A stretch of 64,000 nt of DNA from Acidimicrobiales bacterium (GTDB lineage: Bacteria; Actinomycetota; Acidimicrobiia; Acidimicrobiales; SZUA-35). Shown piece after piece: positions 34,676 through 37,310 of this stretch. The stretch lies in the NCBI GenBank assembly GCA_020629155.1, contig JAHDDW010000014.1, positions 1 through 64,000 on the forward strand. Reading direction: 5' to 3'. The position numbers were made by a program, and so were the translations under genes. The notes beneath the pieces were generated by a model. That model made no database searches. It had not been told where the DNA came from and saw only the letters and a program-made list of their open reading frames with translations. Each line of letters starts with the position of its first letter. The first letter of the stretch is position 1.

Positions 34676-35617
34676 ATGTCTCAACAAGATTGGCTAGAAA
34701 AAGATTTCTATAAAATTCTGGGAGTTTCTGAGTCTGTTTCAGACAAGGAACTCACTAAGGCCTATCGTAAGTTGGCGCGTAAATTCCACCCCGACGCTAA
34801 CCCAAACAACTCCAGAGCTGAAGCAAAATTCAAAGACGTTTCACGAGCATATGACGTCCTCGGCGATGCAAAAACTCGCAGAGAATACGACGAAGTTAGA
34901 AAATATGGTGCAGGTGCTAGCCGATTTGGCAACCCGTTCAAGCATCAGCAGCAAGGTGGACGTCCAGCAGGTGCGTCAAATTTTGGTTTTAATGGACCTG
35001 ACTTTTCTGAGTTTGTTGGCGATATCTTTGGCGGCGGTTTCAGAGGGGCTTCAAACCAGACAGGCCCCCAAAAAGGTGAAAATATTCAAACCGAGATTTT
35101 TATAACGTTCAACGATTCTATCTCTGGGACGATGATGTCAATCAGCGTGCCAGGCAAGTTAGCGTCGTCGAAAGTAAAAGTGCGGATACCCCCAGGTGTG
35201 CGCAATGGCCAAAAAATTCGTTTAAAAGGCCAAGGAGGTCCAGGGCTAAACCGTGGCCAACCTGGTGATCTTCTTGTGATCGTTAAAGTTGGCGCACATG
35301 CGTTTTTCGGTCGTTCTGGCAATAATCTGACGCTTGAATTGCCAGTGACGATAGCTGAAGCTGCCTTCGGGGCAAAAGTAAAAGTGCCAACCTTAGACGG
35401 CGGCTCGGTGACACTTAAAATTCCTGCAGCAACTAACGCAGGTAAAGTGCTTCGGGTGCGTGGCAAAGGGATTAAGGCGCAAAACGAACAAGGTGACCTG
35501 ATGGTGACGATTCGAGTCGATATTCCAGAGGTGCTTTCGTCAGAGCAAGCAGACGCGTTACAAGCCTACGCCGATGCTACATTTGATAACCCCAGAGCCT
35601 TCTTGGAAGGGGCGTAA
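34676..35617 (+). CDS. dnaJ: DnaJ-type co-chaperone without zinc finger
   Basis: Stimulates the DnaK ATPase. 313 aa: J domain (about 8-75, with the HPD motif in RKFHPDANP), a Gly/Phe-rich stretch (80-130), and the two C-terminal beta domains. The CxxCxGxG zinc-finger repeats of classical DnaJ are absent, so it is a type II (CbpA-like) J protein even though it is in the dnaK operon. The start has a short GGTAG leader; a possible TACAAT promoter lies 11 bases upstream. hspR follows by 2 bases. Confidence 0.93.
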   Translation: MSQQDWLEKDFYKILGVSESVSDKELTKAYRKLARKFHPDANPNNSRAEAKFKDVSRAYDVLGDAKTRREYDEVRKYGAGASRFGNPFKHQQQGGRPAGASNFGFNGPDFSEFVGDIFGGGFRGASNQTGPQKGENIQTEIFITFNDSISGTMMSISVPGKLASSKVKVRIPPGVRNGQKIRLKGQGGPGLNRGQPGDLLVIVKVGAHAFFGRSGNNLTLELPVTIAEAAFGAKVKVPTLDGGSVTLKIPAATNAGKVLRVRGKGIKAQNEQGDLMVTIRVDIPEVLSSEQADALQAYADATFDNPRAFLEGA

Positions 35618-35619
35618 TC

Positions 35620-35967
35620 GTGGCTAGAGGAGATGCAGTACATGCGGTCTATGTCATATCTGTTGCTGCTGAACTGGCTGGTGTTCACCCACAAACTCTT
35701 CGGATATATGAGCGTAAAGGGTTAGTAATGCCAGCTCGCACTGGCGGCGGCAGTCGACGCTACAGCGACGCTGATATCGCATTGCTACGGCGAATTCAGG
35801 ATCTGACTGATGAGGGGCTTAACTTAGCAGGTGTCAAGAAAGTGCTTGCGTTGGAAACAAAAATAGCTCGATTGCAGAATCAGATAGTCCAACTAGAAAT
35901 GGTCATGGGTGACACATCGTCAGTCGTGCCGTTGCAGCAGAGCGTTACGATTTATAAACGTGACTAG
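35620..35967 (+). CDS. hspR: Heat-shock repressor HspR (MerR family)
   Basis: 115 aa MerR-type winged helix (YVISVAAELAGVHPQTLRIYERKGLVMPARTGGGSRRYSDADIALLRRIQDLTDEGLNLAGVKKVL) followed by a short dimerisation helix (LALETKIARLQNQIVQLEMVM). In actinobacteria HspR, helped by DnaK, represses the dnaK operon through HAIR sites; such a site precedes dnaK here. The start is GTG 35620, two bases after the dnaJ stop. Its stop overlaps the convergent sigma-like gene by 4 bases. Confidence 0.92.
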   Translation: MARGDAVHAVYVISVAAELAGVHPQTLRIYERKGLVMPARTGGGSRRYSDADIALLRRIQDLTDEGLNLAGVKKVLALETKIARLQNQIVQLEMVMGDTSSVVPLQQSVTIYKRD

Positions 35968-37310
35968 CGTGTAACCCGTTGGCAGAGCACGGGTATTGAT
36001 GTTTGTTGCCCATTGTTAGCAGCGACATAAAATACTTGATTTGTTCGGAAACCATTAGTAACAGCTAGCCACTCTAGCTCTTGAGGGTCGTCTCGCTGTG
36101 GGGCTTCTAAATTTTTTGTTTGCTTGATTTGTTCAAGTTTTGAGTTGTAGAAAATATAGTTGGGTCTGAAGTTTTGTGTTGGTTCAAAAACTTCAACGCC
36201 TGCGCTGAGATTATCCCATAATTGCACTTCGCAACTTTGAGGAGGTGCGAGGAATGACTCTATAAGCGTAGTTGTTGGTGCGGTGCTGGGTATTGGTTTA
36301 GCTGAGGTGGTTGGCCTAACAGTAGTTGTCGGTTTCTGCGTTGTTGTAGATTGAACTATTTCTTTAGTCGTGGTCAAGACTTCAGCAGAATCGACAGCTA
36401 CAGAATTTTTTGTAGTCGCTGTTATTTTTGTTGTCGTAGAGTTTTGCTGGGTAGTAGAAGCCAGCAAAGTGTTCGGTGTCAAAGTGGTTTCAGCCGCCGC
36501 AGTTGCAGTAGCGCGATAGCTGCCGTTCCAAACGAGATATGTTGCCGATGCCCCTGCGAGAACAAGCAGCGTTATGACGCTTAAGAGAAGGAGAAGTTTT
36601 TTCCTTGAAGGTTTTTCTTCCTCATCGAAACTGACTTGGGGAGTTTCAGCAGTGGCTTCGGTTTCTGTTTCGTTTTGAGGGGCGGCGACATTGCTGTTTG
36701 TTTGTGTCGGTTGTTCTTCTTGAATAATCTGAACATCGCCAAAAATATCATTAGTTTCACTGTCTTGTTTGTCATTGTCTGAACGTTGTTCAGGATTTTG
36801 AAGTCCAGTACGTTCATGCCTCGATGCAAGTGACGTCTTTTCGGTTTCTGTTTTCTCAGCGCTTGTGCCGCTCGTTCGATTTTTTTGGTTTATAAGTTTT
36901 TGTGTTGCCTGTGTTGCGAGGTTTTGAATATGCAATGGCGTTGAACTTGACAGCGTAGCGATTTGTTCATAGGAAAGACCGAAAAAAATGTTCAAAGAGA
37001 GAACTTTGTGATGTTCAGCAGTTACGAAATCATCACTATCGAGCAGATCAAGTGCTATTTTTTGGTGGATAATTTCATAAAGGTACGCTGCGAAAGCAGA
37101 ACTATCGCCTCGAAAGGTTTGTAGCTGCTCAAAAGCTGTTGTGAAAACAGTGTCGACTGACGCTTCAAGGTCGCTTTCCTTATGGGTCGCTATGTATTCG
37201 CGTACCTGTGGCGTATATGTGTCTAGTAGATAATCGATAGACTCTTGTTTTTCCATTCGCGCATTTGTTAAGTGTAAAATGAACTCGGTATTTGTATTCG
37301 TATTTGTCAT
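35964..37310 (-). CDS. Membrane-anchored sigma-factor-like protein with extracytoplasmic domain
   Basis: 448 aa. Residues 20-90 resemble sigma-70 region 2 (VDTVFTTAFEQLQTFRGDSSAFAAYLYEIIHQKIALDLL) and 98-142 resemble region 4 (VLSLNIFFGLSYEQIATL, then a recognition-helix-like segment). Next come a Glu/Thr/Gln-rich linker (145-235), one transmembrane helix (238-261, after RKK), a Thr-rich stalk (265-360) and a C-terminal domain with two cysteines (CEVQLWDNLSAGVEV..., VLCQRV). The topology puts the sigma-like part in the cytoplasm. It could be an ECF-type factor fused to its own sensor, or a degenerate DNA-binding protein. A GGTGAG site precedes the ATG. Confidence 0.72.
   Translation of the reverse strand: MTNTNTNTEFILHLTNARMEKQESIDYLLDTYTPQVREYIATHKESDLEASVDTVFTTAFEQLQTFRGDSSAFAAYLYEIIHQKIALDLLDSDDFVTAEHHKVLSLNIFFGLSYEQIATLSSSTPLHIQNLATQATQKLINQKNRTSGTSAEKTETEKTSLASRHERTGLQNPEQRSDNDKQDSETNDIFGDVQIIQEEQPTQTNSNVAAPQNETETEATAETPQVSFDEEEKPSRKKLLLLLSVITLLVLAGASATYLVWNGSYRATATAAAETTLTPNTLLASTTQQNSTTTKITATTKNSVAVDSAEVLTTTKEIVQSTTTQKPTTTVRPTTSAKPIPSTAPTTTLIESFLAPPQSCEVQLWDNLSAGVEVFEPTQNFRPNYIFYNSKLEQIKQTKNLEAPQRDDPQELEWLAVTNGFRTNQVFYVAANNGQQTSIPVLCQRVTR

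Follow-up and report, generated by a model that had tools for sequence, protein, structure and literature searches.

Membrane C-terminal extensions of actinobacterial ECF sigma factors, which an earlier note on the DNA analysed here had mentioned, are on record for ECF48, ECF52 (SCO4117 of Streptomyces coelicolor), and ECF53, in which an ECF domain is combined with a transmembrane (TM) helix, a low-complexity stretch, and an extracytoplasmic domain (PMC5826349, PMC8999054). In IutY (ECF243) of Pseudomonas putida, an ECF sigma factor is fused to a membrane anti-sigma/sensor part and is activated by proteolysis (PMC8999054). PhyR of Alphaproteobacteria represents another use of the same fold, in which a sigma2/sigma4-like domain acts without promoter reading (PMC4598750). 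These are the closest described systems for a protein encoded in the window, by which we mean the whole 64,000-nucleotide stretch that was analysed from contig JAHDDW010000014.1 of an Acidimicrobiales bacterium (GCA_020629155.1).

This protein, hereafter the window protein, consists from N to C terminus of a helical domain (residues 1-145), an acidic linker, an RKK sequence, a TM helix, a Thr-rich stalk, and an ectodomain, which holds its only cysteines, C360 and C443 (Table 1). The earlier note had described a single polypeptide that unites a sigma-like domain, a membrane anchor, a Thr-rich stalk, and an outside domain bearing two cysteines, and this description was borne out. The reading frame that it reported is real as well; the strand, which it left out, is the minus strand.

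Table 1. Features of the window protein gene and its convergent neighbour (window positions).
Feature	Positions	Strand	Basis or remark
448-aa sigma-derived single-pass membrane protein (window protein)	35964..37310	-	ORF; orthologue at the same place in G001
Sigma2-like domain, residues 8-92	37035..37289	-	Fair conservation of regions 2.1-2.2; region 2.4 without its basic residues
Sigma4-like domain, residues 98-145	36876..37019	-	Region 4.1 kept; 4.2 recognition helix without basic residues
Cytoplasmic linker, acidic and of low complexity, residues 146-235 (17% Glu)	36606..36875	-	Sequence
TM helix, residues 239-261, preceded by cytoplasmic RKK	36528..36596	-	Sequence; equivalent helix in relatives
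Thr-rich extracytoplasmic stalk, residues 263-349, 33% Thr	36264..36524	-	Sequence
Ectodomain, residues 350-448, FN3/Ig-like beta sandwich, invariant Cys360 and Cys443, absent from Pfam	35967..36263	-	
hspR, convergent neighbour	35620..35967	+	3' ends overlap by 4 nt with the window protein gene

The gene adjoins a dnaK-grpE-dnaJ-hspR cluster and meets hspR tail to tail, as the earlier note had observed, the two ends overlapping. The same placement was found in G001, a genome of the same genus, where an orthologue of 522 aa (L040:3842-5410) lies at the same place, which rules out a chance open reading frame. HspR and DnaK are 74% and 81% identical between the two genomes, respectively, whereas the window protein and its orthologue are 26% identical overall, with 19.6% in the sigma part and 26% in the ectodomain. 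The frame is intact in both species, with no stop and no deletion into the TM helix. Within the genus the gene was found in two genomes only, the third being 55% complete. In other genera of the family, hspR is mostly followed by a same-strand clpB-like frame (clpB being inferred from reading frames) or by other genes, and a window-type gene beside hspR was absent from all 28 other loci examined. A general position beside hspR across the family was thus rejected, and the fusion stands there in this genus only. When named genomes were scanned using the window protein, no matches were obtained. The DnaJ of the cluster (window positions 34676-35617) has no cysteines and therefore lacks the zinc-finger domain; the DnaJ of G001 (L040:5773-6879), which is 49% identical to it, has the zinc finger.

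The sigma homology of the window protein is real but weak. Pfam Sigma70_r2 matched region 2 with an E-value of 0.012 (15.8 bits against a curated cut-off of 24), NCBIfam TIGR02937 (sigma70-ECF) matched with an E-value of 3.3e-5 (23.6 bits against a cut-off of 42.9), and region 4 had no Pfam match in the window protein, while Sigma70_r4 matched the orthologue below its cut-off (E 0.0021). The window protein therefore reaches no curated Pfam or NCBIfam cut-off for region 2 or 4, a mark by which ECF (group IV) sigma factors are recognised. When the window protein and its orthologue were compared with four canonical ECF sigma factors by hhalign, both regions were spanned with a probability of 98.6 and an E-value of 8e-16. 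Residues 1-149 were modelled by AF2 with a mean pLDDT of 88.5 from a 25-row alignment of mostly canonical sigma factors; this input may favour a sigma fold, and the model and the claim of homology are therefore not independent lines of evidence. Searches with Foldseek and VIA-align matched the sigma2 part to sigmaE, SigW, CnrH, and BldN, with sigmaE as the best match (Z 12.3, 2.3 A over 91 aa), and residues 93-149 to sigma4 folds (for example, 3vfz with Z 9.0, and 1rp3 with Z 10.0 and 1.0 A over 52 aa). PhyR-NepR structures were also among the fold-search matches of the sigma part. Sigma2 and sigma4 folds in order, a feature of ECF (group IV) sigma factors, are thus present. The curated cut-offs that were not reached might suggest an unrelated helical membrane protein misread as sigma-like, a reading that we regard as very improbable given the hhalign E-value, the fold matches to sigma2 and sigma4 in the proper order, and the canonical ECF sigma factors that relatives with the same ectodomain hold in the same position. 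The region 2-like and region 4-like segments of the earlier note are supported by profile, fold, and homologues alike; of the checks that it had proposed, the sigma-70 r2/r4 profile search gave sub-cut-off matches that hhalign confirmed, and structure prediction of the region of residues 1-145 returned a sigma fold.

The features by which a sigma factor reads a promoter are largely missing. Basic columns were defined as those with at least 75% Lys/Arg among 28 relatives in the alignment. The window protein keeps 0 of 7 such columns against 37 of 44 hydrophobic ones (Fisher p 3e-5). For the orthologue the corresponding figures are 3 of 8 and 32 of 44, a difference that by itself does not reach significance (p 0.096). 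These counts are alignment-dependent, and the columns are not independent of one another. The 28 relatives keep 2-7 of 7-8 basic columns. Genome composition bias was rejected as the cause of the missing residues, since 12 other ECF sigma factors of the window genome keep 2-6 of 8. The linker is reduced to a similar extent in both orthologues: between fixed sigma2 and sigma4 anchors there are 16 residues in the window protein and 19 in the orthologue, as compared with 40-56 in 40 related sigma factors. About 30 residues, corresponding to the sigma2-sigma4 linker and the first sigma4 helix, are absent ahead of the sigma4-like domain of the window protein, and in the AF2 model the last helix of sigma2 (70-92) and the first remaining one of sigma4 (98-110) are only about five residues apart. 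In Mtb sigmaL, sigma2 and sigma4 sit so far apart on RNA polymerase that the 20-residue connector has to be fully extended to bridge them (PMC6372665), and deletion of the sigmaH linker abolishes transcription in vitro (PMC6411747). Two features of ECF (group IV) sigma factors, a linker long enough to thread RNA polymerase and the conserved basic residues of regions 2.4 and 4.2, are thus wanting in the window protein. The loss of basic residues and linker, like the fold, the architecture, and the orthology, was shown by computation.

Other parts of the domain are better kept. Compared with the split-operon sigma factors of the family, which are described below, the window protein is 39% identical in regions 2.1-2.2, 36% in 2.3-2.4, 44% in 4.1, and 15% in 4.2. 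The orthologue keeps 4.1 (50% identical) and little of region 2.2, and the two proteins together range from 44-50% in region 4.1 and from 15-21% in region 4.2. Regions 2.2 and 4.1 are the docking sites of sigma factors on RNA polymerase, and for this reason the pattern suggests docking without promoter reading.

Judged from these sequence features, the window protein is probably not a working sigma factor. We consider it unlikely that it is a membrane-tethered ECF sigma factor of unusual promoter specificity that is released by regulated proteolysis upon an ectodomain signal, following the logic of ECF52 or IutY. The retained sigma fold, the better conservation of 2.1-2.2 and 4.1, the plentiful canonical TM-ectodomain fusions in the family, and the proteolytic release shown for IutY and proposed for ECF48/52/53 (PMC8999054) would all agree with such a function, but neither orthologue has the linker and first sigma4 helix, basic columns are absent from the window protein and few in the orthologue, the precedent of sigmaH is one of inactivity after linker deletion (PMC6411747), and there is no zinc-finger anti-sigma motif in a protein whose two cysteines are both outside. 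The arrangement that the earlier note had envisaged, in which a single chain serves as both sensor and transcription factor and no separate anti-sigma factor exists, accordingly fits about 20 relatives and is unlikely for the window protein itself; the loss of all promoter-contact residues in homologues, which the note had named as evidence against its reading, applies to a large extent to the direct orthologues and not to the wider family. Its suggestion of a shared promoter motif led no further, as a sigma70 promoter scan for the window gene gave no more matches than shuffles and no GGAAC-type ECF -35 element was seen by eye in the 81 nt upstream. Autoregulation of the gene has no support from these two results.

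The ectodomain was modelled by AF2 with a pLDDT of 94.4 and a pTM of 0.86. Its closest folds are FN3/Ig-like sandwiches with Z up to 6.6; this score is middling and may reflect no more than a shared arrangement. We found no convincing match in Pfam families or PDB sequences, in agreement with the earlier note, which could not name the domain. Cys360 and Cys443 recur without exception in 12 homologous ectodomains, which makes a disulfide between them likely. The ectodomain was present in 11 of 39 genomes of the Acidimicrobiales family and was not found outside the family among the genomes sampled.

Within the family, the same ectodomain occurs in several settings. L023 encodes a protein of 452 aa in which canonical regions 2 and 4 are fused to a TM helix and this ectodomain. 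In L020, L021, and L022, a membrane protein ending in the ectodomain is encoded beside an ECF sigma gene and an SNF2-helicase gene, the sigma and partner genes overlapping by 4 nt (start/stop) in L020 and L022; L024 and L043, both truncated by the end of their contig, probably carry the same split pair. In L042, L044, and L046, the ectodomain ends membrane proteins that have no sigma part. The sigma parts of the window protein and its G001 orthologue joined the split-operon sigma factors in a tree with support of 90/70, which is not firm; their branches are very long, at 2.65 and 2.93, the median being 0.69. Ahead of its ectodomain, the orthologue has a stretch resembling, by eye, the CNA/SdrD-like domain of the split partners. 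The common ectodomain, the tree grouping, and this stretch give moderate, not firm, support to a putative descent from a linked pair of sigma factor and membrane partner. The split partners share a conserved region at the N terminus ('FEFALAG') that is a candidate anti-sigma element and is not present in the window protein. An SNF2-linked pair with a different ectodomain (G007, L211:923-3099) has a partner with a similar 'EFxFALAG' N-terminus, a region that no family model matches. A simple in-place fusion at the SNF2 locus was not supported, as this locus in the window genome holds neither a sigma nor a partner gene.

Sequence comparison further places a one-chain sensor and sigma factor in this Acidimicrobiales family. 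About 20 further proteins from two genera have a canonical ECF sigma factor in which only a few residues separate region 4 from a TM helix, and their ectodomains are ricin-type, RTX, pentapeptide, DUF642, pectate-lyase-like (by eye), or unnamed. Among 298 sampled genomes of the order, matches through the TM helix came from this family and one other (G303), with one interrupted candidate (G109), and 346 sampled genomes of the phylum held at most a few fusion candidates. The ricin-type, lectin-like ectodomain is found in L056, L057, L063, L066, L068, L071, and L075, apparently without an anti-sigma domain. In L058-L062 the ectodomain ends in Gly/Asp-rich repeats (RTX calcium-binding by Pfam in L058), in L065:2242-3813 a pentapeptide-repeat ectodomain is joined to the ECF sigma factor and TM helix, and L025:5463-8012 encodes an 849-aa fusion whose outside part is pectate-lyase-like by eye. 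In three genomes (L064, L069, and L070), a TM-fused ECF sigma gene is immediately preceded by a soluble one of its own subfamily, resembling a duplicated pair. The canonical fusions would represent a compact sensor design with interchangeable ectodomains, the FN3-like one included.

The explanation that we favour, and hold to be somewhat probable as a whole, is a fusion of sigma factor and partner, followed by loss of promoter reading, that now serves as a membrane-anchored sigma mimic. An ECF sigma factor would have fused with the membrane protein that was its partner and that carried a TM helix and this ectodomain; after the fusion, within the genus, the sigma part would have lost its linker and the basic residues contacting -10 and -35 DNA. 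The hydrophobic core would have been kept, with region 4.1 kept best of all (along with 2.1-2.2 in the window protein), and the window protein most likely no longer initiates transcription. As to what the ectodomain senses and what the sigma-like domain binds, we infer that the disulfide-closed FN3/Ig-like domain on its Thr-rich stalk would meet something outside, and that inside the cell the sigma-derived domain, held by a flexible acidic tether, would bind a sigma partner, either an anti-sigma factor or the flap/clamp of RNA polymerase, and so sequester or free that partner. That the protein docks on RNA polymerase or an anti-sigma factor, reads no promoters, and lets an outside signal shift sigma competition or anti-sigma availability is a more tentative proposal. 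We found no comparable membrane-bound sigma mimic in the literature searched.

The evidence from two orthologues only, which are 20% identical in the sigma part and keep different subsets of residues, also fits drift and speaks against the favoured explanation. An inert relic, in which ectodomain and anchor are retained for an adhesion or envelope function while the cytoplasmic sigma-derived part decays, would account for the low identity of the sigma parts (19.6%), for the different subset kept by each orthologue, and for the proteins of L042, L044, and L046 that carry the ectodomain without any sigma part. We nevertheless think a relic improbable: the hydrophobic core is kept at 37 of 44 columns in the window protein and at 32 in its orthologue, the helical fold is confident, the frame is intact into the TM helix in two species, and the ectodomain, at 26%, is hardly better conserved. 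Mimic and relic are separated by nothing beyond this retention of fold and frame in two species. If the protein is indeed a sigma mimic, an outside signal would alter sigma competition without the sensor itself initiating transcription. The family appears to present three steps, namely a sigma factor with a separate partner, a fused and apparently functional form, and a fused form that has lost promoter reading. This series makes it testable how one-chain sigma sensors form and decay, and also lets the reuse of a former sigma factor as a mimic be tested.

Within the family, the canonical fusions (L023, L025, L056-L075) have the same order of parts as the window protein, and L023 has the same ectodomain, but they keep the promoter-contact residues and the linker, and their TM helix follows a few residues past sigma4, where the window protein has a 90-residue acidic tether. 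The split pair (L020-L022, probably L024 and L043, with G007 as a variant) has the sigma factor nearest to the window protein by tree and identity and a partner that ends in the same ectodomain; it differs in being two genes with a complete sigma factor rather than one chain. Among described systems, the window protein shares with ECF52, ECF48, and ECF53 a TM helix followed by a low-complexity stalk and an extracytoplasmic domain. In ECF52 a zinc-finger anti-sigma domain separates sigma4 from the TM helix, whereas the window protein has no cytoplasmic Cys and no Pfam match to a zinc finger; the zinc-finger domain described for ECF48/52/53 also sets these groups apart from the canonical fusions of the family. 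Outside the membrane, ECF52 has a carbohydrate-binding domain, and the window protein has an ectodomain of predicted FN3/Ig-like fold that matches no Pfam family; the sigma part of the window protein is also defective. IutY is an active sigma factor of siderophore cell-surface signalling in a Gram-negative envelope and is in these respects unlike the window protein. With PhyR the window protein shares a sigma-like domain without promoter-contact residues and, under our proposal, action without promoter reading; PhyR is soluble, has a receiver domain, and binds NepR, whereas the window protein has a TM helix and, by Pfam, no receiver domain. The window protein shares some features with ECF48/52/53, with IutY, and with PhyR, and it departs in at least one defining feature from ECF52, by its lack of a zinc finger, and from PhyR, by its lack of a receiver domain.
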